Shown here one piece after another: positions 16,281-62,880 of a stretch of 64,000 bases of DNA. Within the stretch, counting starts at the first letter, position 1; every line of letters starts with the position of its first letter. Both the position numbers and the translations under genes were made by a program. The notes beneath the pieces were generated by a model. That model ran no database searches. It was not told the origin of the DNA and worked only from the letters and a program-made list of their open reading frames with translations. The DNA comes from Catenulispora sp. EB89 (lineage in GTDB: Bacteria > Actinomycetota > Actinomycetes > Streptomycetales > Catenulisporaceae). The DNA lies in the NCBI RefSeq assembly GCF_041261445.1, contig NZ_JBGCCU010000011.1, positions 186,001-250,000 of the forward strand. The letters run 5' to 3'.

Positions 16281-17681
16281 CTACCGAGGCAGCGCCGGCA
16301 AAGCCCCGACATACAACCAACCATCGAAGAACTCACTCAAATCCCGCCCCACCACCGACGAAACCACCTCCACGAACTCCGCCGTCGACACCGTCGAATG
16401 CCGGAACCGCGCCGTCCACTCCCGCAGCGCCCCGAAGAACGCCTCGTCGCCGACCGTCACCCGCAGCGCGTGCAACGTCAGCGCGCCGCGCTTGTACACC
16501 CGGTCGTCGAACAAGTCGGCGGGGCCCGGGTCGGCCAGCACCAGGTCCTGCGGCAGCCGCGCCAGACGGCCGTGCCACATCCGGGCGTGCTCCGCCGCCG
16601 AACGGCCGCCGGAGCCCTCCGACCACAGCCACTCCGCGTAGCAGGCGAAGCCCTCGTGCAGCCAGATGTCGCGCCAATCGCCCAACGTCAGGCTGTTCCC
16701 GAACCACTGGTGCGCCAGCTCGTGCGGGATCAGGCGCTCGCCGTCGCCATCGCCGTCGCCCTCCATGTGGTTGCTGCCGAACATCGACACGCCCTGGGCC
16801 TCCACCGGGATCTCCAGGCGGTCCTCCGTCACCACCACCGTGTACGCCCCGAACGGATACGGGCCGAACAGCCGGCCGAACAGCGCGATCATCGCGTCCT
16901 GCGCCGCCAACGCCTCCACCGCCGCCGCCATCCGCCGCGCCGGGGCCACCACCAGCAGCGGCACGCCGCCGGCCGTGCCCGGTAAGTCCGCGCGCTGATA
17001 CTGGCCGATCTGCACCGTCGCCAGATACGTCGCCATCGGCACGTCCTGCACGAACGTCCACGTCGACGACGACCCGCTGTGCGCCACACCCGCCAGCCGG
17101 CCGTTCGCCACCACCCGGTACTGCGACGCCGTCGTCACCTGGATCCGGTACGTCGCCTTGTCATCCGGCCGGTCGTTGCACGGAAACCACGACGGGGCCC
17201 CCGTCGGCTGCGACGCCACCAACACCCCGTCCGCCAACTGCTCCCAGCCCAGCCCCCCGTACCGGGACGACGTCGGACGCGGCGCACCCCGGTACACCAC
17301 CTCCACCACCACCTGCTCCCCGGCCGCCACCGGCGCCGGAAGCACCACCTTCAACTTCTCCTTGCGGTGCTCGAACCGCAGCCGCCGACCGTCCTGCAGT
17401 ATGACCCGGTCCACCCGCAGCTCCGCGAAATCGAACACCAGCGACGACAGCGACGCCGTCGCCCACACCGTCACCACCGCCACCCCCGTCAACCGGTTCG
17501 ACCCCACCCGGTAATCGAGCGTCAGCTCGTAGTGCTCGACCACGTAGCCTTCGTTGCCGCGCCGCGGGAAATACGGCGCCGCAGCCGCCGACCGCGCGCC
17601 AGCGTCGGCGCGTGCGCGCGCACCAGTACCCGCCGCCGCACCAGAACCAGAACCAGTACCAGCCACCAGATCCCCGCTCAT
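16281..17681 (-). CDS. M1 family zinc aminopeptidase, coupled to the Pls-like synthetase
   Basis: Zinc aminopeptidase of the M1 (gluzincin) family, 466 residues. The zinc site HELAHQWFG is at His320-Glu321-His324, with the third ligand Glu343 in WLHEGFACYAEW, exactly the HExxH-x18-E spacing. It has the N-terminal beta-saddle and catalytic domains but lacks the long C-terminal domain of PepN-type enzymes. A Gly/Ser/Ala/Arg-rich N-terminal 35 residues shows no signal peptide. Its ATG (17681) overlaps the TGA of the upstream Pls/PosA-type synthetase by 4 bases, so the two are translated together. Published epsilon-poly-lysine-degrading enzymes of Streptomyces are zinc exo-aminopeptidases; by analogy this one may trim or detoxify the synthetase product. 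Substrate is inference. Confidence 0.9.
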   Translation of the reverse strand: MSGDLVAGTGSGSGAAAGTGARARADAGARSAAAAPYFPRRGNEGYVVEHYELTLDYRVGSNRLTGVAVVTVWATASLSSLVFDFAELRVDRVILQDGRRLRFEHRKEKLKVVLPAPVAAGEQVVVEVVYRGAPRPTSSRYGGLGWEQLADGVLVASQPTGAPSWFPCNDRPDDKATYRIQVTTASQYRVVANGRLAGVAHSGSSSTWTFVQDVPMATYLATVQIGQYQRADLPGTAGGVPLLVVAPARRMAAAVEALAAQDAMIALFGRLFGPYPFGAYTVVVTEDRLEIPVEAQGVSMFGSNHMEGDGDGDGERLIPHELAHQWFGNSLTLGDWRDIWLHEGFACYAEWLWSEGSGGRSAAEHARMWHGRLARLPQDLVLADPGPADLFDDRVYKRGALTLHALRVTVGDEAFFGALREWTARFRHSTVSTAEFVEVVSSVVGRDLSEFFDGWLYVGALPALPR

Positions 17682-20600
17682 GCCCGACCCGGCCACGGCG
17701 CGATCGGATTCCCCTGCCACCGCGTATGCGCCGGCACCGACTCACCCCGCATCACCAACGACGCCGGACCCACCGTCGCCTGCGCCCCGATCTCCGCCGC
17801 CGGCAGAATCACCCCCTGCGGACCCAACGTCGCCCCCGCGTCCAACCGCACCACATCCATACTCATCACCCGGTCATGGAACAGATGCGTCTGCACCACA
17901 CAGCCCCGATTCACCGTCGAGGCATCGCCCAACACGATCAAATCCGCCTCCGGCAGCCAGTACGTCTCACACCACACGCCACGACCCACCCGCGACCCCA
18001 TCGCCCGATGCCACACGTTCAACGGCGCCGTCCCCAACCACGTCTCCGCGAACCACGGAGCCGCCACCAACTCCACGAAGTTGTCCGCCAGCTCATTGCG
18101 CCACACGAACGAACTCCACAACGGCTGATCCGATACCCGGATCCGCCCGACCAAAGCCCACTTCGCCACCACCGCGATCACACCGGCCAACACCCCCGCG
18201 GCCAAAAACACCACACCGCCCAAAAGCACCGCCGCGGCGACACCCCAAGACCGCGCCACCTCCGTCACCACCGCCACCGACAACAACGCCACCCCGGCCG
18301 TCACCATCATCGGCACCAGACGACACAACTCGATCGCGGCGCGCGCGGCCATCAGACGGCGCGGCGGGTTGTACGTCAGCGAGTCGTCGACGTCCTGGCC
18401 CGGACGCCGCAACCGCTCCGGAGGCATCCCCAGATACGACTTGCCCCGCTTCGCCTTGTGCGGAGCCGCCGACAACACCCCGACCAGGCTCTCCTTCGGC
18501 AGCTTGCGGCCCGGCGCCACCATCCCGGAGTTGCCCACGAACACCCGCTTGCCGATCCGCGCGTGCCCCACGCGCAACCAGCCGCCGGCCATCTCGTACG
18601 GCGCGATCATCGTGTCGTCGGCCAGGAACGCGCCGTCGTTGACGGTCGTCATCGCCGGGACTGCCAACACCGTCGACATCTCCACGCCGCGCCCGACCCG
18701 CATCCCCAGCACCCGCAGCCACGACGGCGTCAGGATGCTCGCATACAGCGGATACAGCCACACCCGCGCCATCGCCATCAGCTGCAACGTCGCCCAGGTC
18801 TGCCACGCGCGACGGCTGTGCAGGGGATGGTCGCCGGCGCTCATGCCCACGCTCAGCGCCCGCACGCACGCCAACGTCAGCAGCGCGTAGCAGATCACGA
18901 ACACCGGCGTCGCAGGCACCAGACCCACCAGCGCCCAGCCGAAGCCCTGCCACACCGTCGACGTGTCCTGCACGAACGCCGCCACGATCAGCAGCGCCGG
19001 AAGCGCCGCGATCAGCGGGAACAGCGCCAGCCCGACCGCCGTCGACCCGTACACCCAGGTCCACAGCCGCGAACGCCGCGCCACACCCGGAGGACGCTCA
19101 GCCTTGCGCAACCGCACCGCCGGCGACCCCGCCCACTCCTGACCGGCCGGCACCACACCGGCCACCGACGAACCCGGCGCGATCCGCGCCCGCTCACCGA
19201 TCCGCGCACCCGGCAACAGCAACGACCGCGCACCCACCGAAGCGTTCGCGCCGATCCGCAGCTCACCCACGCGAACCCGGGCCCCGTCCACCCAGAAACC
19301 GGTCAGGTCGACCTCCGGCTCCACCGACGAGCCCTGATCCATCCGCAGCATGCCGGTCACCGGCGGCGGCGAATGCAGATCCACGTCCGGGCCAAGCCGG
19401 GCCCCCAACGCCCGCGCGTACAGCGTGTTCCACGGCCCGGTCACCGTCGTCAACACCCCGATACGCCACGCCAACTGCTCCGCCGCCCACAACCGCAGAT
19501 GCACCGACCCGCCGCGCGGATAGTCACCCGGCCGCACGCCCCGCACCAGCAGCCGCACGCCTCCCGCCGCCAACGCGATTCGGCCGGGAGGAGAGACGAA
19601 CAGCACGAACCCGGCCGCCACCAGCCACCACGACACGCGCGGCGCCCACGGCACGTCGACCAGATTCCCCAGCCCCGCCAACAACGTCAGCCAGCGCACC
19701 GCGCCCAGCGTCGCCAACGGCACCATCACCGCCACCTGCACCGCCTGCGCGCCGCGGCTCACCGGCGCCACCTCCGGCACCGACTCCGCGACCTCGCCGT
19801 CCACGGCTTCCGGAGCCAGCGCCATCAACCGGGCCGCCAGCTCGCCCAACGTCGGATTGTCGTACACGTCGCGGACCGTCACGGTCGGATACCGCGACCG
19901 CAGAATCGACACGAACCGCGCCGCCACCAGCGAACTGCCGCCCACATCGAAGAAATCGACCTCGGGGCGCACCGGGCGCTCACCGAGCAGCGTCGCCCAG
20001 CGTTCGGCGAGCCAGTCCTCGGCGACGGTCAGTTCTGCCGCCTCCACCGGCTCCTCGACGCCCGGCAACGGCCACGGCAGCGCGTTGCGATCCACCTTGC
20101 CCGACGTGCGCACCGGCAGATCGTCGACCACCGCGATCCGCGGCACCAGCGCCGCCGGCAGTTGCTCGGCCAGCGCGGCGCGCGCGGTCGCCGGGTCGAA
20201 GCCCGCGGCGTTGGGCACCACGTAGCCGACCAGGATCTCCGCGCCGCCGGCGGTCTTCTTCACCGCAGCCGCAGCACCGGCCACCCCGGGCAGCGCCTGC
20301 AACGCCGCGTCGACTTCGCCCAGCTCGATCCTGCGGCCGCCGAGCTTGACCTGCTCATCGGCGCGGCCCAGGAACACCAGGCCCTCCGGATCGGCGCGGA
20401 CCAGGTCACCGCTGCGATAGGCGCGATCCCAGTCCATCGACTTGAGCGGCGCGTACTTCTCGGCGTCCTTCTCCGGGTCCAGATACCGCGCCAGGCCCAC
20501 GCCGCCGATCACCAGCTGGCCCGAGCCGCCCATCGGCACCGGCTCCTCCAGCTCGTCGACGACCACCAGCTCCCAACCGTCCAGCGGCAGCCCGATGCGC

Positions 20601-21628
20601 ACCGGGCTCTGCCCGGTCAGCTGCGCGGCGGTCGCCACCACCGTCGCCTCGGTCGGGCCGTAGGTGTTCCACACCTCCCGGCCCGCCACCGCCAAGCGCT
20701 CGGCCAGCTCCGGCGGGCACGCCTCGCCGCCGAAGATCAACAGCCTGACGTCGGACAGCGCCTCCACCGGCCACAGCGAGGCCAGCGTCGGGACCGTCGA
20801 GACCACGGTGATGCCGTTCTCCACCAGCCACGGACCCAGGTCCACACCGCTGCGCACCAGCGCCCGCGGCGCCGGGACCAGGCAGGCGCCGTTGCGCCAG
20901 GCCAGCCACATCTCCTCACAGGAGGCGTCGAAGGCCACGGAAAGGCCCGCCAGCACACGGTCCGAGGTGCCGATCGGCGCGCCGCGCAGGAACAGGCCGG
21001 CCTCGGCGTCGACGAACGCCGCCGCGTTGCGGTGGGTGACGGCGACGCCCTTGGGCTTGCCGGTCGAGCCGGAGGTGAAGATGATCCAGGCGTCGTTGGC
21101 GAGGGTGGGCGGGGCTGGCTGATGAGCTGGCTGGGCCAACTGGGCCGGCTGTGCTGCGGGCTGGGCTTCGGCCTCCGGTGTGTTCTCCGCGGAGACTTGG
21201 TTCTGCACGGAAACCTGGTTCTGCACGGTGATGCGCAGCCCCTCGCCGATCACCGCCCGGACCTCGGCCTCGCCGAAGACCAGGCGCGCACGCTCGTCCG
21301 GGTCGTCGGCGTCCACCGGGACGTACGCGGCCCCGGCCGTCAGGACACCGAGAATCCCGATGTAGAGATCGACGGTCCCGGAAGGAACCCGCACCCCCAC
21401 CCGATCCCCGGCCCCCACGCCGGCCCGGCCCAGCCGCGCGGCCATCGCCGCCGCCTCCACGAGCAGAGCGGAGTAGTCCAGCGCCCGGCGACCGTCGTCC
21501 AACGCCGTGGCGTCAGGATGCGCACGCGCCGTGGCGTGCAGAATGTCAATGAGCGTACGGGGCGCTGGCGCCGACGCCGACGCGTCGTACACCGCGGGGG
21601 CGTCCTGACCGGACACCGGCTGATCCAT
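17678..21628 (-). CDS. Pls/PosA-family NRPS-like synthetase (epsilon-poly-lysine synthetase type)
   Basis: A 1,316-residue membrane synthetase with A-PCP-TM architecture; length and layout match epsilon-poly-L-lysine synthetase (about 1,319 residues). The A domain has A3 IIFTSGSTGKPKG (182-194), A4 FDAS (233), A5 NTYGPTEAT (321), A7 YRSGDL (404) and A10 RTSGKVDRN with Lys511. The carrier domain has FFDVGGSSL, with Ser566 as phosphopantetheine site. From about residue 640 come roughly six membrane helices separating three related soluble domains with hexapeptide-like repeats (GANASVGARSLLLPGARIGE). No condensation or thioesterase domain is present. Aligning by eye to GrsA, the pocket reads D-A-E-S-I-G-T-V-V-K, close to published lysine codes. 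A low-complexity Gln/Pro insert (134-174) lies before A3. ATG 21628 is the start; the M1 peptidase follows with ATGA overlap. Confidence 0.9.
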   Translation of the reverse strand: MDQPVSGQDAPAVYDASASAPAPRTLIDILHATARAHPDATALDDGRRALDYSALLVEAAAMAARLGRAGVGAGDRVGVRVPSGTVDLYIGILGVLTAGAAYVPVDADDPDERARLVFGEAEVRAVIGEGLRITVQNQVSVQNQVSAENTPEAEAQPAAQPAQLAQPAHQPAPPTLANDAWIIFTSGSTGKPKGVAVTHRNAAAFVDAEAGLFLRGAPIGTSDRVLAGLSVAFDASCEEMWLAWRNGACLVPAPRALVRSGVDLGPWLVENGITVVSTVPTLASLWPVEALSDVRLLIFGGEACPPELAERLAVAGREVWNTYGPTEATVVATAAQLTGQSPVRIGLPLDGWELVVVDELEEPVPMGGSGQLVIGGVGLARYLDPEKDAEKYAPLKSMDWDRAYRSGDLVRADPEGLVFLGRADEQVKLGGRRIELGEVDAALQALPGVAGAAAAVKKTAGGAEILVGYVVPNAAGFDPATARAALAEQLPAALVPRIAVVDDLPVRTSGKVDRNALPWPLPGVEEPVEAAELTVAEDWLAERWATLLGERPVRPEVDFFDVGGSSLVAARFVSILRSRYPTVTVRDVYDNPTLGELAARLMALAPEAVDGEVAESVPEVAPVSRGAQAVQVAVMVPLATLGAVRWLTLLAGLGNLVDVPWAPRVSWWLVAAGFVLFVSPPGRIALAAGGVRLLVRGVRPGDYPRGGSVHLRLWAAEQLAWRIGVLTTVTGPWNTLYARALGARLGPDVDLHSPPPVTGMLRMDQGSSVEPEVDLTGFWVDGARVRVGELRIGANASVGARSLLLPGARIGERARIAPGSSVAGVVPAGQEWAGSPAVRLRKAERPPGVARRSRLWTWVYGSTAVGLALFPLIAALPALLIVAAFVQDTSTVWQGFGWALVGLVPATPVFVICYALLTLACVRALSVGMSAGDHPLHSRRAWQTWATLQLMAMARVWLYPLYASILTPSWLRVLGMRVGRGVEMSTVLAVPAMTTVNDGAFLADDTMIAPYEMAGGWLRVGHARIGKRVFVGNSGMVAPGRKLPKESLVGVLSAAPHKAKRGKSYLGMPPERLRRPGQDVDDSLTYNPPRRLMAARAAIELCRLVPMMVTAGVALLSVAVVTEVARSWGVAAAVLLGGVVFLAAGVLAGVIAVVAKWALVGRIRVSDQPLWSSFVWRNELADNFVELVAAPWFAETWLGTAPLNVWHRAMGSRVGRGVWCETYWLPEADLIVLGDASTVNRGCVVQTHLFHDRVMSMDVVRLDAGATLGPQGVILPAAEIGAQATVGPASLVMRGESVPAHTRWQGNPIAPWPGRA

Positions 21629-21984
21629 TCGGGTTTCCTCGCGTCGGCGGGACGGCGCGCGTGGTTCGCGGGCCTGGCCGATGTCAGGATATCAACAGAG
21701 ATGATCACGCGAATTCCAGCGGCGCCCCGGGAATGACAGTCGGTGGGCGGGCGAACTGTGGTGCCAGCACAGCGAACCGAAGCGTCGGCGGCATGGCGCG
21801 GGCGTGGTGTGGGGATGGCCGACAGGTGTCTGGCTGGCTCGGGGCCGAGGAGAGCATATCGGTGGGTGGGGGTGTTCTGGCGCCGCCGGCCACTCCCCCA
21901 AGATCACGAAGAGCCGTTCTTTTAGATGAGTGCCGCCGAAGGCGGCTCCTTGCAAGGTCGTGTGGGCGTGAAGGTGAGCTGGAT
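21629..21984. other. intergenic region between divergent genes
   Basis: No convincing gene here: open frames are Arg/Pro/Ala-rich with poor codon bias. It must hold the promoters of the synthetase (minus) and the DUF2625 gene (plus). A small hairpin GCCGCC-GAA-GGCGGC lies at 21932-21946, shortly upstream of the DUF2625 start, in a locally less G+C-rich patch (TTCTTTTAGATGAG at 21917-21930). I cannot assign -10/-35 boxes with confidence. Confidence 0.5.
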
Positions 21985-24304: not shown

Positions 24305-25423
24305 TCACGTGTTCGCCGGCACCTCCGTCCCGGCCCCGCGCCGCCGCACAGCGACCTGCTCGGCGCGCGCCGCCGGCAGCGTCGCCTCCTTCCGCCCCTC
24401 GACGACGAACCCGGCATCGGCGATCATCGCCAGGTCGTCCGAACCCGCCGCGCCCTCGCTGGTCAGGTAGTCGCCGAGGAAGATCGCGTTGGCCAGGTGC
24501 AGCGCGAGCGGCTGCATCGTGCGCAGGTGGATCTCCCGGCCGCCGGCCAGCCGCACCTCGACGTCCGGGAACACGAAGCGGAACAACGCCAGGATCCACA
24601 GGCACCGCGCCGGCGTGAGGTCCCACCGCCCGCCGAGGGGAGTGCCCTCGAACGGGATGAGGAAGTTGACCGGCACCGAGTCCGGATCCAGCTCCCGCAG
24701 CGCGAAGGCGACGGACACCACGTCCTCGTCGCTCTCCCCCATCCCGAAGATGGCGCCCGAGCACGGCGACAGCCCGGCGGCGGTGGCGTCCCGCAGCGTG
24801 CTGACGCGGTCGGCGAAGGTGTGCGTGGTGCAGATGTCCGCGTACTTCTCCTCGGCGGTGTTCAGGTTGTGGCTGTAGGCGTCGGCTCCGGCGGCGGCCA
24901 GCCGCGCGGCCTGACCGTCCTTGAGCAGCCCGAGGCAGACGCAGACCTCGACGTCGGGCGTGCCGTCCTTGATGGCGGCCACGGTGTCGGCCACTCGTTC
25001 GACATCGCGATCCGAGGGCCCGCGTCCGGAGGCGACCAGGCACACGCGCTTGGCCCCGGCGCCGACGGCCTTCGCGGCCAGCTCCGTCGCCTCATCGGTC
25101 TTGATCCAGGAGTACTTCAGGATCTCCGCCTCGCTGCCCAGCCGCTGCGAGCAGTAGAAACAGTCCTCCGGACACAGCCCGGACTTCATGTTGACCAGGT
25201 AGTTGAGCTTCACTCGGCGCCCGAAGAAGGCCCGCCGCACGCGCCCGGCGGCCACGACGACGTCCAGCAGGTCCTCATCGGAGCTGTCCAGAAGCGCCAG
25301 CGCCTGCTCGCGCGTCGGTGGCCGGCGCTCCAGGGCCGCCGCGACCAGGTCGGAGAGCAGGTCGGAGAGCGGCTCGGGAAGCAGGGTGTCGAGGGGAAGG
25401 TGCACACCAGAGGGGTCGGTCAT
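24305..25423 (-). CDS. bioB: biotin synthase
   Basis: Radical-SAM sulfurtransferase that converts dethiobiotin to biotin. The [4Fe-4S]-SAM motif is C84-x3-C88-x2-C91 in [14 protein letters not shown]. The auxiliary-cluster and substrate residues lie in the conserved [39 protein letters not shown] and IPFEGTPL blocks. The 372-residue length is slightly longer than E. coli BioB through a Leu-rich N-terminal extension and a C-terminal tail ([20 protein letters not shown]). It is not clustered with bioF, bioA or bioD here. I searched the upstream gap for a BioQ- or BirA-type operator and found none that is convincing. Confidence 0.97.
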
Positions 25424-27448: not shown

Positions 27449-28306
27449 ATGAACAACCTGCACCGCGACCTCGCCCCGGTCAGCGACGCCGCCTGGGAGC
27501 AGATCGAGGAGGAGGCGCGCCGCACGGTGCTGCGGTACCTGGCCTTCCGGCGCGTCGTGGACGTCTCGGGCCCGGACGGCCTGGAACTCGGCGCGGTCGG
27601 CAACGGCCACACCTCGGCGATCGTCGCCCCGCACGACGGCGTCCAGGCCCGGCTGCGCAGCGCCCAGCCGCTGGTGGAGGTGCGGATCCCGTTCGAGCTG
27701 GACCGTTCCGCCATCGACGACGTGGAGCGCGGCGCGCAGGACAGCGACTGGCAGCCGGTGAAGGACGCGGCGAAGATCGCGGCGTTCACCGAGGACCGTG
27801 CGATCGCCGACGGCTACGCGGCGGCCGGCATCACCGGGCTGCGGCCGTTCGCCAGCAACGCGGCGATGGCGCTGCCCGAGGACCCGGTCGACTTCCCGAC
27901 GACCGTGGCGCGGATGGCCACGCAGCTGAAGCTGGCCGGCGTCGAAGGGCCCTACCACCTGGTGCTGGGCGCGGACGCCTACCAGGCGCTGTCGGACGCG
28001 GTGGACCACGGGTACCCGGTCGCCGAGCACGTGGCGCGGCTGATCGACGGCGAGGTGATCTGGGCGCCGGCGATCACCGGCGGCGTGCTGCTGTCCAGCC
28101 GCGGCGGGGACTACCGGCTGCAGCTGGGGCAGGATTTGTCGATCGGGTACGAGTCGCACACCGCGGAGAAGGTGCGGCTGTACTTCACGCAGTCGTTCAC
28201 GTTCCTGCCCTACACGGCTGAGGCGGCGGTGCCGCTGAGCGCGAAGCTTGTGGAGGCCGCAGAGGGGAAGGCGGGCAAGGAGACGAAGCCCGCCAAGCGG
28301 CGGTAG
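27449..28306 (+). CDS. family 1 encapsulin shell protein
   Basis: HK97-fold shell protein of 285 residues that self-assembles into an icosahedral nanocompartment around DyP. The N-terminal MNNLHRDLAPVSDAAWEQIE is the conserved cargo-binding region. It is followed by ARRTVLRYLAFRRVVDVSGP, the axial domain around YHLVLGADAYQAL, and the C-terminal strands DLSIGYESHTAEKVRLYFTQ. The body of the protein ends near residue 268. A Lys/Glu-rich tail (EAAEGKAGKETKPAKRR) follows that is not typical; because the encapsulin C-terminus points outwards, this would give the shell surface a charged fringe. Its ribosome-binding site TAGGAG lies inside the end of the DyP gene. The terminator overlaps its stop codon. 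Confidence 0.95.
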   Translation: MNNLHRDLAPVSDAAWEQIEEEARRTVLRYLAFRRVVDVSGPDGLELGAVGNGHTSAIVAPHDGVQARLRSAQPLVEVRIPFELDRSAIDDVERGAQDSDWQPVKDAAKIAAFTEDRAIADGYAAAGITGLRPFASNAAMALPEDPVDFPTTVARMATQLKLAGVEGPYHLVLGADAYQALSDAVDHGYPVAEHVARLIDGEVIWAPAITGGVLLSSRGGDYRLQLGQDLSIGYESHTAEKVRLYFTQSFTFLPYTAEAAVPLSAKLVEAAEGKAGKETKPAKRR

Positions 28307-58828: not shown

Positions 58829-58850
58829 TGAAGCGTGTACTGAAGCGTGT
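58829..58850. promoter_or_regulatory. 10-bp direct repeats in the peptidase/regulator intergenic region
   Basis: TGAAGCGTGT occurs at 58829-58838 and 58841-58850, 12 bases start to start, just upstream of the peptidase ribosome-binding site (GAGGAAC). It is a candidate binding site for the dual-HTH regulator. Confidence 0.4.
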
Positions 58851-58860
58851 GAGGAACCGA

Positions 58861-61800
58861 ATGCACAATCCCCGTTCACCCCGGCCCACCGCCGCAAGAA
58901 GTCGAATACGCCTGATCACGGCCCTGATCGCGGGCACCACGCTGGCCGCCGGCACCCTCGGCACCATCGGCACGGCGAGCGCCGACTCGTCCGCCCCGAC
59001 CGTGCCGGGGCGAACCCCCGCCGCCTTCGGCCCGCAGGGCTCCGTCACCTCCGCCGGGGCCTCAGCGTTCGGCGAAACCTGGAAGGCCTCGGACCATCCG
59101 GCGCCGGCCGGGAGCTCGGCCACCGCCGGCGGCCACGCCGTGAGCAGCATGATCAGCTCCAGCACGCCGATCCCGGCCGCGCTCGTCGCCGCCGCCAAGA
59201 CCGACGCCGCCGCGACCGGGCCCAAGCGGCTGGCCCTGGCGAACACCTCGGGCCTGCCGTCGAACTACGGCATCTCCTCCTCGCTGGAGAGCTGGATGAA
59301 CTCCGGCGGCGTGGACGCCCTCGGCGCCTACAGCGACCTGCAGACCCGCTACGGCAAGCTCCCCGGCCAGGGCGAGATCATCACCAACGTCTGCGTCGGC
59401 GACCTCACCGACGCCTCGATGGCCGCCGCCGGCGACGGCTACGTCAAGCAGTTCGGCCCGACCACCGTCGTCTCCGGCGGCCAGCGCTACCTGGATCTGC
59501 CGTCCATGCCGCTGATCCCCACCTACGTCAGCGACACCGCCGGGCACCTGGACCCGCTGGGCTCCACCGAGAACCAGGACCCGACCAACGGCGAGATCAT
59601 GTTGGACTTCAGCGTGATGGCCCCGCTGCCGCACCAGAACCAGCGTCCGGAGAACACCGGCAGCGGCTACACCGACCTGCTCGGCGTGGCGCCCGGCGCG
59701 AAGTACCGCCTGGTGGTGCCCGCCAGCCCGACCCCGGACCAGATCCGGGTGGCGCTGCTGGCCGCCGCGCGCCAGAGCCCGCGGCCGAACGTGATCAACG
59801 CCAGCCTCGGCTTCGGCACCGACAGCCAGGGCTTCCCCGGCCGTTACCTGGAGGACGACCCGGCGATCCAGGCCACGATCACGCAGATCGTGCACCAGTA
59901 CGGCATCACGGTCTCCATCGCCGCCAACGACGGCACCCGCCTGTTCACCCCGACCGCGGTCGGCCCGGACGGCGGCAGCACCCCCACCGACGTGGCGCAC
60001 TCGGCGCATCAGGCCACGACCATCGACGACGACTCGATGTCCACCACGCCGAGCGAGGTGCCGGACAGCGGCGCCATCGCGGCCGGCGGCAGCACCACCG
60101 ACGACACGCTGGCGGCCGGCACCGCGGGCCCGGCGACGGTGGCCGAGACCCGGATCACCGGCAGCGGCGACTTCTCCTCCGGCTTCGGCTCGCGCATCGA
60201 CCTGTCGGCGCCCAGCGACAACATCCCGGCGTTCTCGCACGCCGTGGGCCAGTCGGCGCAGAGCGTCGACGTGAGCCTGACCGGCGGCACCTCCGCCTCG
60301 GCCCCGGAGATCGCGGCCGCCGCGGCCGTGGTCGACGGCACCGCGAAGCTGACCGGCCGGACCCTGACGCCGCAGCAGATCAGGGATCTGCTGGTGGACA
60401 CCGCGCGCAAGGTGGCCACGCCGGCCCAGATCGACCGGACCCTGAACGTCGGCCCGCAGGTGGACCTCACCGCGGCGGTCGAGCGGCTGCTGCCGGGCTC
60501 GCACCGGGATGACGCCGGCTCCGCCGCGAGCGCCCCCGGCAACGGCACCACCGACGTCGCGGGCAGCAGCACGGATGCCGCCGGCGCCGTCGACGCCAAG
60601 CACGGCGCCACCCAGATCGTCCGGCTCGGCGTCCAGCACCACGTGCTGCTGGGCCAGGAGGGCGGCGAGTTCCTGGAGAGCACCGACCCCGGCTCGATCG
60701 ACCTGGCCGGACCGGCCGACATCCGCGGCCAGAACACCGGCGAGGGCCTGGTCGGCCCGCTCACGTTCGCCGCGGACGTGGTGAACGCCGGGCAGGGCGC
60801 GCGCTACCGTCTGACCGTCGGATCCCAGCACTTCGACTCCGACACCCCGGCCATCCGGATCACCCCGACCCAGCTGCTGACCGCCGCCGGGCTGCCCGTG
60901 GTCTCCACGACGCCGCGCACCGTCTCGGTCCGCTTCGACGTGCTCTCCCACGGCCGGACGACCGCGACGATCTCGCAGTCGCTGACGCTCAGCGCCACCG
61001 ACGGCACCTTCCTGGAAGCGCCCGCGCCGACCGCCCCGGCGACCGTCGCGGCGGGCCAGGACGTGACAGTGCACTACGACCTGACCGGCGTGCGCAACGT
61101 CAAGAACCCGACGCTGGCGGTCTCGACCGTCGGCCACTGGAGCCCGGTGCTCGCGCCGCTCTACAACAACGCGTGGACCACGCCGCTCACCGGCACCTCC
61201 GGCGACGTGAAGATCCCCGCCTCGGTGTTCGCCTCCGGCGGCGGCATCTACGGCGTCACGCTCATCCAGGACTACTCGAACGCGAACTACCCGATCTACG
61301 GCGAGTCCGCGCCGATCCGGGTCGCGGGCTTCACCGCCGACCGCCGTCCGGACGCGCCGACGCTGACCGCCGGCGGCCGCCACGGCGCCGCTGACGCGTC
61401 CCAGGCCACTGACGGATCCGACGCCAAGGCCGTCTTCGGCCACCAGGCGGAGGTCTCCCGCAAGGCCCCGACGTTCAGCCTGCGGTACTCGGTGGACTCG
61501 GTGCCCGGCGCGGCCGGGGCGATGCTGGAGATCTCCTCCGGCGCGCCGACGCTGTGGAACTCGCTCAACACCTTCACCGCGATGAACGGCACCGCCCGGG
61601 ACGGCGACGGCTTCGACGCCGGCTCGCTGGTCTACCAGCGGCTCCCCGGACGCTCCGGGACCGTGACGCTGGACGCGCTCAAGCTCGGCCTGGCCACGTC
61701 CTCGCAGTACAACGTGCGCGTGGTGCCGATCGGCTGGGACGGCAAGGCGGCCGGGCAGGCGTCGCCGTCCTCGAACCTGACCGTGGATGACGGGCTGCCG

Positions 61801-62880
61801 CCGGCCGGCGGGCAGGTCGTGGACTTCGCGGCCAAGGGCGCGGACTCGGTCGCCCTGGTGACCGACACCTCCGACGCCGGCGAGTCGGTGCGGCACTACA
61901 ACCCGGCGACCGGGACGTACGGATCGGTCATCACCTCGGACACCACCCAGGCCGGGCCCTACGCCATCATCGGCGTGGACGACTCGGCGCACCGCGTGGT
62001 CCTGATGCACATCCTGGGCCAGGACTCGTACCAGCTCGAAGTGCGCAACCTGGCCGACGGCTCGCTGGTCGGCACACCGCAGGTCGTGCAGAACACGCCG
62101 GGGCTGGTCATGGGCGGCCGGGTAGACTCCACGCTGCACCAGGCCTGGGTGCTGCAGTGGGCGAAGTCGGACTACCACGACGAGCTGCTGAGCGTGAACG
62201 TCGGCACCGGCGCGGCGGGCACCCCGATCGAGCCCGACGCCGCGGTCAAGGCGACCCGCGCGTACTACAACGGCATCGACGTCGACGCGAGCACCGGCAC
62301 CGTCCAGCTCGCGCACCTCGCCAACAGCGCCCTGTGCTTCGGCGGCGCGGCGAACGCGGTGATCAACGTCAGCGAGGCCACCGGAGCAGTCACCGCCGGC
62401 ACCGGCTTCACCCCGAAGTGCGGCACCAGCTTCGCCTCGGCGCAGGACGGTTCGAAGGCCACGCTGCTGAACTACGCCAGCTTCAGCGTCAACTTCCTGA
62501 GCCACACCACGCTGAACCAGGTCGACGAGAAGACCCTCGCCACCACCGGCGGCGGCACGCTGCGCCAGCAGATGGCCGGCCCGGTGGCCGTGGACAGCGC
62601 GCACCACGTGGCGCTGATCGCCTACGCCAGCCCGCAGCCGCTGTCGATCTTCGGACACCCGGGCGGGGTCCTGACCGACAGCAACTCGCGCAGCCAGATC
62701 GACGTGGTGGACACCGACACGGGCAAGGTGCTGAAGACCCTGTCCTCGTTCGAGTTCACGCACGGCTTCGGCGGCCCGCTGGCGTTCACCGCCGAGCCGA
62801 ACGTCCAGATCGATCCGGCGACGCGGACCGGGTTCACCTACGGGCCGGGATGGAGCCAGATCGAGCAGTTCAGCTACTGA
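58861..62880 (+). CDS. large secreted S8/S53-superfamily serine peptidase
   Basis: A 1,339-residue extracellular peptidase. A Sec signal (IRLITALIAGTTLAAG to GTASA) is followed by a propeptide-like region. The catalytic domain spans about residues 140-530 (numbered from GTG 58849). The nucleophile Ser482 is in GGTSASAPEIAAAAAVV. The expected subtilisin Asp and HGTxVA motifs are not present; instead NGEIMLDFSVMAPL gives Glu249-x3-Asp253, the S53 (sedolisin) E-x2-L-D motif, and AANDGT supplies Asn360-Asp361 near the oxyanion position. A long C-terminal half of beta-rich, fibronectin-like and propeller-like repeats follows. ATG 58861 has GAGGAAC and is preferred to GTG 58849. It probably acts extracellularly, possibly at acidic pH if S53-like. 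Confidence 0.85.
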   Translation: MHNPRSPRPTAARSRIRLITALIAGTTLAAGTLGTIGTASADSSAPTVPGRTPAAFGPQGSVTSAGASAFGETWKASDHPAPAGSSATAGGHAVSSMISSSTPIPAALVAAAKTDAAATGPKRLALANTSGLPSNYGISSSLESWMNSGGVDALGAYSDLQTRYGKLPGQGEIITNVCVGDLTDASMAAAGDGYVKQFGPTTVVSGGQRYLDLPSMPLIPTYVSDTAGHLDPLGSTENQDPTNGEIMLDFSVMAPLPHQNQRPENTGSGYTDLLGVAPGAKYRLVVPASPTPDQIRVALLAAARQSPRPNVINASLGFGTDSQGFPGRYLEDDPAIQATITQIVHQYGITVSIAANDGTRLFTPTAVGPDGGSTPTDVAHSAHQATTIDDDSMSTTPSEVPDSGAIAAGGSTTDDTLAAGTAGPATVAETRITGSGDFSSGFGSRIDLSAPSDNIPAFSHAVGQSAQSVDVSLTGGTSASAPEIAAAAAVVDGTAKLTGRTLTPQQIRDLLVDTARKVATPAQIDRTLNVGPQVDLTAAVERLLPGSHRDDAGSAASAPGNGTTDVAGSSTDAAGAVDAKHGATQIVRLGVQHHVLLGQEGGEFLESTDPGSIDLAGPADIRGQNTGEGLVGPLTFAADVVNAGQGARYRLTVGSQHFDSDTPAIRITPTQLLTAAGLPVVSTTPRTVSVRFDVLSHGRTTATISQSLTLSATDGTFLEAPAPTAPATVAAGQDVTVHYDLTGVRNVKNPTLAVSTVGHWSPVLAPLYNNAWTTPLTGTSGDVKIPASVFASGGGIYGVTLIQDYSNANYPIYGESAPIRVAGFTADRRPDAPTLTAGGRHGAADASQATDGSDAKAVFGHQAEVSRKAPTFSLRYSVDSVPGAAGAMLEISSGAPTLWNSLNTFTAMNGTARDGDGFDAGSLVYQRLPGRSGTVTLDALKLGLATSSQYNVRVVPIGWDGKAAGQASPSSNLTVDDGLPPAGGQVVDFAAKGADSVALVTDTSDAGESVRHYNPATGTYGSVITSDTTQAGPYAIIGVDDSAHRVVLMHILGQDSYQLEVRNLADGSLVGTPQVVQNTPGLVMGGRVDSTLHQAWVLQWAKSDYHDELLSVNVGTGAAGTPIEPDAAVKATRAYYNGIDVDASTGTVQLAHLANSALCFGGAANAVINVSEATGAVTAGTGFTPKCGTSFASAQDGSKATLLNYASFSVNFLSHTTLNQVDEKTLATTGGGTLRQQMAGPVAVDSAHHVALIAYASPQPLSIFGHPGGVLTDSNSRSQIDVVDTDTGKVLKTLSSFEFTHGFGGPLAFTAEPNVQIDPATRTGFTYGPGWSQIEQFSY

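Follow-up and report, generated by a model that had tools for sequence, protein, structure and literature searches.

A candidate epsilon-poly-L-lysine operon pairing a Pls-type synthetase with an M1 aminopeptidase in Catenulispora sp. EB89

Overlapping synthetase and peptidase genes

We analyzed a 64,000-nucleotide stretch of the genome of Catenulispora sp. EB89 (the window; contig NZ_JBGCCU010000011.1, positions 186,001 to 250,000) and focused on two adjoining genes that resemble pls and pldII, the epsilon-poly-lysine synthetase gene of Streptomyces albulus and its peptidase neighbor. An earlier note on this DNA had proposed that the pair forms one operon that makes poly-lysine or a related poly-amino-acid and contains its own degrading enzyme. 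Both open reading frames (ORFs) lie on the minus strand of the window, at the coordinates that the note had given. The features, with the evidence for each, are as follows.

17678..21628, minus strand: pls-like gene for a predicted single-module nonribosomal peptide synthetase (NRPS)-like epsilon-poly-lysine synthetase of 1,316 aa, with adenylation (A), peptidyl carrier (PCP), and membrane polymerization domains (ORF list, domain searches, pocket alignment, model)
20078..21538, minus strand: A domain, residues 31-517, pocket DAESIGTVVK (Pfam, PDB match, GrsA-anchored alignment)
19826..20017, minus strand: peptidyl carrier domain, residues 538-601 (Pfam)
17681..19798, minus strand: C-terminal polymerization domain, residues 611-1316 (TIGR02353 at residues 630-1309; structure model; weak, partial Foldseek matches)
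17678..17681, minus strand: ATGA overlap of the synthetase stop and the peptidase start (sequence)
16281..17681, minus strand: pldII-like gene for a two-domain M1 metallo-aminopeptidase (Pfam, PDB matches, zinc motif)
16653..16724, minus strand: zinc site HELAH-X18-E of the M1 peptidase (motif search)

The ORF, Pfam, TIGR02353, and the structure model all agree on a 1,316-residue synthetase of A-PCP-membrane architecture, as the earlier note had described it. The claimed overlap was also seen at 17678..17681, where the peptidase ATG at 17681 shares the bases ATGA with the TGA stop of the synthetase, an arrangement that probably couples translation of the two genes. From an alternative GTG start (17720), the peptidase ORF would span 16281-17720 on the minus strand and encode 479 aa. 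We read a plus-strand ORF opposite the synthetase gene (17612-21736; 1,374 aa) as an antisense shadow.

Synthetase family and predicted substrate

The Pfam matches of the synthetase were AMP-binding (226 bits), PCP (48 bits), and Hexapep, with no condensation or thioesterase domain among them. Its C-terminal region scored 697 bits against TIGR02353, the terminal domain of the “Pls/PosA family NRPS,” for which the curated cutoff is 423, and its best PDB match was 7wew, the S. albulus epsilon-poly-L-lysine synthase (634 bits). Over its full length, the protein is 54% identical to a Pls that is itself close to that of S. albulus (near-S. albulus Pls; A domain 94% identical to 7wew). This value is comparable to the 51% identity between the Pls proteins of Corynebacterium variabile and S. 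albulus, both of which make epsilon-poly-lysine (PMC8117764). A Catenulispora rubra protein is 98% identical to the window synthetase over residues 173-1316.

We set the ten pocket positions by GrsA numbering, after verifying the GrsA stretch against PDB 1amu. The alignment of the A domain with GrsA and Pls yielded a lysine-type pocket, DAESIGTVVK, which exactly reproduces the residues read by eye in the earlier note. That note had placed the pocket within two positions of a published lysine code; the agreement with the A domain of S. albulus Pls (7wew) goes further, at 10 of 10 residues. The same code was found in 101 of 103 aligned rows, some of which are redundant because certain proteins entered under two names, and the exceptions were GrsA (DAWTIAAICK) and a paralogue on contig C16 of the same genome (DFECLSVVSK). 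After 62 rows were added, it was found in 160 of 165, the exceptions being GrsA, the C16 protein (twice), and loci L186 and L189, whose pockets have V at position 5.

Pocket codes in print include DMEHNGTVSK for PosA, the delta-poly-L-ornithine synthetase of Acinetobacter, and DGESISVVNK for a poly-beta-lysine synthetase; position 2 is described as Ala in lysine enzymes, Met in PosA, and Phe in the PDAP and PDAB synthetases (PMC10522769). The Met at position 2 and His at position 4 of PosA are replaced in the window pocket by Ala and Ser. Lysine is thus strongly predicted as the substrate of the A domain, because the pocket matches that of Pls and differs from the PosA, poly-beta-lysine, and PDAP/PDAB codes.

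The 11.9-Mb source genome (70 contigs) also encodes paralogues of the synthetase. A copy on contig C33 (P0004, L110:8418-12455; 1,345 aa) has the same DAESIGTVVK pocket and is 58% identical to near-S. albulus Pls, versus 54% for the window protein. No M1 match was found on C33, the five in the genome being on C11 (two), C2, C3, and C34. Likewise, no M1 gene was seen beside P0004-type copies at five loci of congeners (0/5; L206 to L210), where the available downstream flank is limited to between 0.6 and 4.9 kb and three of the contigs are short. On contig C16 (L111:7641-16595), the gene for the synthetase P0005 (pocket DFECLSVVSK) is followed by genes for diaminobutyrate transaminase, aspartate kinase, and oligopeptidase B. 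The poly-diaminobutyrate locus is described as comprising a synthetase gene, dat, and ask (PMC8117764), and the C16 locus appears to be a cluster of this type. Judged by its gene content, the genome seems to code for two synthetases that use lysine and one that uses diaminobutyrate. We considered oligopeptidase B as a second parallel to the peptidase-synthetase pairing and rejected it as unreplicated: the one relative with enough flank (L245, genome G1132) has the synthetase, dat, and ask without oligopeptidase B, and the contigs of two congeners with a C16-type locus hold the synthetase only.

These paralogues bear on whether the window synthetase makes a different cationic homopolymer, that is, poly-beta-lysine, poly-ornithine, or poly-diaminobutyrate. 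The Pls/PosA family covers all of these activities (PMC10522769), and with a poly-diaminobutyrate-type cluster in its genome, the organism seems capable of producing several polymers of this kind. The window pocket, however, equals that of Pls at all ten positions, is unlike the PosA and poly-beta-lysine codes, and carries Ala at position 2, in contrast to the Phe of the PDAP and PDAB synthetases. We therefore set these three products aside on their pocket residues and regard such a polymer as very improbable.

We modeled the polymerization domain (residues 611-1316) with AlphaFold2 from 47 aligned sequences (pLDDT, 88.2; pTM, 0.89). The model is composed of three repeats, each with a long helix pair, shorter helices, and then a run of short strands, and we read these runs in the model as left-handed beta-helix segments, three in all. 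A Foldseek search (E ≤ 0.001) returned 52 matches, mostly hexapeptide acyltransferases (best, 4.2e-5); the remainder included complex I entries. TM-scores relative to the query were low (at most 0.15 among the matches listed) because most matches span one repeat. The PosA model is described as having six bent helices and three beta-helices (PMC10522769), and the window model agrees with that description. Modeling of the membrane domains had been suggested in the earlier note, and the three long-helix pairs and three beta-helices obtained are as in PosA. PosA thus shares the domain layout and the described polymerization-domain fold of the window synthetase, although its pocket, its ornithine substrate, and its single-gene operon are unlike those of the window (PMC10522769).

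Partner peptidase and conservation of the pair

The peptidase matched Peptidase_M1 (96 bits) and Peptidase_M1_N (65 bits) in Pfam, and its M1 zinc motif, HELAH-X18-E, is intact and of the HEXXH-X18-E type. The closest solved structures are the zinc metalloproteases PDB 6a8z and 6iff (E 5e-62), which are similar in length to the window peptidase and which we take to be Deinococcus proteins. The window peptidase shares 43% identity with the M1 partner of near-S. albulus Pls, which stands here for PldII by its position; PldII itself is known from published statements. In S. albulus, PldII, the neighbor of pls, is an epsilon-poly-lysine degrading enzyme; its gene is translationally coupled to pls, and the enzyme, which is found outside the membrane, protects the producing strain (PMC9223678). 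Given this identity and the position of the gene, we predict with moderate confidence that the window peptidase hydrolyzes epsilon-poly-lysine.

We compared the window with 80 named loci, which ranked highest in similarity to the window protein among at least 591 relatives, and with further loci chosen because they either resembled the S. albulus A domain or came from the same genus (20 + 20 + 7 + 20 stretches, part of the matches). All 80 named relatives have a same-strand M1 ORF downstream. In 77 of them, its frame is open no later than 20 bases past the pls stop, and in L068, L072, and L081, it opens 270, 535, and 2,070 bases after the stop. The pls stop lies in an ATGA context in 15 of the 80 and in a GTGA context in 22 (37/80 together). 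Among further loci L166 to L205 (n = 40), 37 have an M1 gene, and 32 of these 37 show one of the two contexts (ATGA, 15; GTGA, 17). Because third codon positions are rich in G and poor in A (60% and 2%, respectively, in the window pls), a GTGA counts for little as evidence and an ATGA for much; given that TGA stops are common, ATGA alone is weak as well, and we relied solely on its excess. The pairing of the synthetase with an M1 peptidase is not due to chance.

The conservation bears on the idea that the peptidase is a generic cytosolic aminopeptidase, co-transcribed with pls by chance or for lysine recycling. Such a role would fit a protein that has no recognized signal peptide and whose nearest solved structures belong to M1 enzymes not known to be linked to poly-lysine. 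We nevertheless find it unlikely in view of the M1 gene downstream in 80/80 named relatives, with its frame open within 20 bases in 77, and of the degradation of epsilon-poly-lysine by the S. albulus neighbor, PldII (PMC9223678).

Operons of pls with a peptidase gene are known in Streptomyces and Corynebacterium (PMC8117764, PMC9223678), and pls homologues are listed in Nocardia (PMC4035055). With pls-pldII of S. albulus, the window shares an A-PCP-membrane synthetase, the same pocket, and an adjoining, coupled peptidase gene (PMC9223678); it differs in that its synthetase is separated from S. albulus Pls by a supported branch (below) and its peptidase is without a Tat-like signal. In C. variabile, compared here by its published description, a Pls homologue is in an operon with a peptidase, as in the window, and expression of this Pls in Streptomyces coelicolor gave epsilon-poly-lysine of 26 to 35 residues (PMC8117764). 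The window pair is a Catenulispora example of an already known system. Our full-text literature search for the genus together with poly-L-lysine returned two papers, each naming Catenulispora a single time, and yielded no report of this pair.

Two groups of loci and their distribution

We built a FastTree phylogeny of 132 rows with a very distant outgroup, so that the root is unsure. A well-supported branch (99) separates 100 loci, including the window, from the S. albulus side, which was sampled from one genus plus orphan copies from Catenulispora. On the window side, 99 of 100 partner peptidases have no hydrophobic N-terminal stretch (highest 13-residue hydropathy, 1.24); the remaining locus, L068, has a stretch of 2.01 far upstream of the likely start and was counted in neither class. 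By comparison, a signal resembling those of twin-arginine translocation (Tat), with an RR pair and a hydrophobic stretch (1.50 to 2.38), was present in all 21 S. albulus-side partners (L166 to L178, L180 to L184, and L194 to L196). These labels come from 13-residue hydropathy and the RR motif, assigned by eye and re-measured, rather than from a trained predictor; RR pairs are also common in the no-signal rows, where they occur without the hydrophobic stretch. Twenty of the 21 signal-bearing partners fall in a 24-row set with 7wew (100), whereas the other, L195, joins six Catenulispora orphan copies in what the program flags as a possible false join. Our literature search found nothing on twin-arginine export of a Streptomyces aminopeptidase together with poly-L-lysine.

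The 24-row set also includes three loci, L179, L185, and L188, at which no M1 gene was found downstream. All three are Pls loci of the S. albulus side and come from Streptomyces-like genomes, two of which (G637 and G756) also hold pls-M1 pairs of the widespread type (L187 and L189).

All 10 Catenulispora genomes, including the source genome, have a match at 1e-150. With the 7wew A-domain fragment as the query (E 1e-110; pockets were read only in fetched loci), matches were found in 22 of 396 phylum-wide genomes, the source genome included; in 167 of 392 genomes of a genus taken as Streptomyces; and, within one actinobacterial family (f4), in 273 of 301 genomes, making the match near-universal in that sample. 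We infer that f4 is the mycobacterial family, as L197 and L199 group in the tree with named Mycobacterium and Mycolicibacterium loci. An M1 gene was present in 16 of 20 fetched f4 loci, which were kept outside the tree, and the top N-terminal hydropathy was 1.27; the zinc motif was not found in 1 of these 16 partners (L228; 260 bits). At the other four loci (L222, L232, L233, and L234), no M1 gene was found within ~2.2 kb, although it may have been cut off with the flank, because the M1 gene ends ~2.2 kb away in some relatives.

These patterns raise the possibility that the lysine polymer remains within the cell or its envelope and that a cytosolic peptidase turns it over, so that it would serve for housekeeping or storage and not as a secreted antibiotic. 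The window-side partners without an export signal (99/100, with L068 set aside) and the strong A-domain matches in 273/301 f4 genomes are consistent with this possibility. On the other hand, the polymer of C. variabile Pls was detected in S. coelicolor culture extracts (PMC8117764), the absence of signals was judged by hydropathy and eye, no M1 gene was found within ~2.2 kb at 4/20 f4 loci, and we found no search for intracellular polymer in the literature. We consider an internal polymer doubtful. Similarly doubtful is a division of lysine-polymer systems into two kinds: a secreted S. albulus type with a Tat-exported peptidase and a widespread actinobacterial type, near-core in one family and including the window, in which a cytoplasmic peptidase would turn over epsilon-poly-lysine that is kept internally or at the envelope for housekeeping or as a reserve.

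Proposed function of the operon

We conclude that the locus is probably a pls-pldII type operon that makes epsilon-poly-L-lysine, with a coupled M1 aminopeptidase that hydrolyzes the polymer. The operon proposed in the earlier note, with a lysine-pocket Pls-type synthetase and a probable degrading enzyme, is supported by the sequence and by characterized relatives (S. albulus Pls/PldII and C. variabile Pls). The A domain would activate L-lysine and load it onto the carrier domain. By homology to Pls, the membrane domain, which resembles beta-helix acyltransferases, would then repeatedly join lysines via the epsilon-amino group to give epsilon-poly-L-lysine. The aminopeptidase, with coupled expression suggested by the overlap, would cleave the polymer, limiting its build-up and protecting the cell; in the lineage of the window, it may act inside the cell, versus outside in S. 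albulus. We infer lysine activation, the epsilon linkage, polymer length, and peptidase activity from the characterized relatives.

Several points weigh against the proposed epsilon-poly-lysine operon. Identity of the pocket is also compatible with a modified lysine or another linkage. PldII is described as an endo-type enzyme with two zinc ions on residues without the HEXXH motif (PMC9223678), a description that does not fit a plain M1 enzyme. Neither hydropathy nor inspection by eye recognized a Tat-like or other hydrophobic N-terminal signal in the window peptidase; because of this missing signal, its location, and perhaps its role, would differ from those of PldII, and we place it in the cytosol, unlike PldII, with weak to moderate confidence. 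No polymer was detected from C. variabile itself or from its gene in Corynebacterium glutamicum (PMC8117764); given a Pls without detectable polymer in its own host, the Catenulispora gene may therefore be silent. No product from Catenulispora turned up in the literature searched.

Other genes in the window

Upstream of the pls locus, the window encodes a biotin-synthase-like protein with Radical SAM and BATS domains (24305-25423, minus strand). An encapsulin shell protein gene (PF04454, 300 bits) is located at 27449-28306 on the plus strand. Inspection by eye suggests a hydrophobic, signal-like N terminus for a plus-strand ORF of 1,343 aa (58849-62880), which has no match in Pfam at 1e-5.

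Implications

With this locus, Catenulispora becomes another predicted producer of epsilon-poly-lysine, which is used commercially to preserve food. The two groups of synthetase loci differ in the export signal of the partner peptidase, which is a testable difference. The natural role of poly-lysine has been called less well understood (PMC8117764); if the polymer of the widespread group is non-secreted, that role would be open to genetics.

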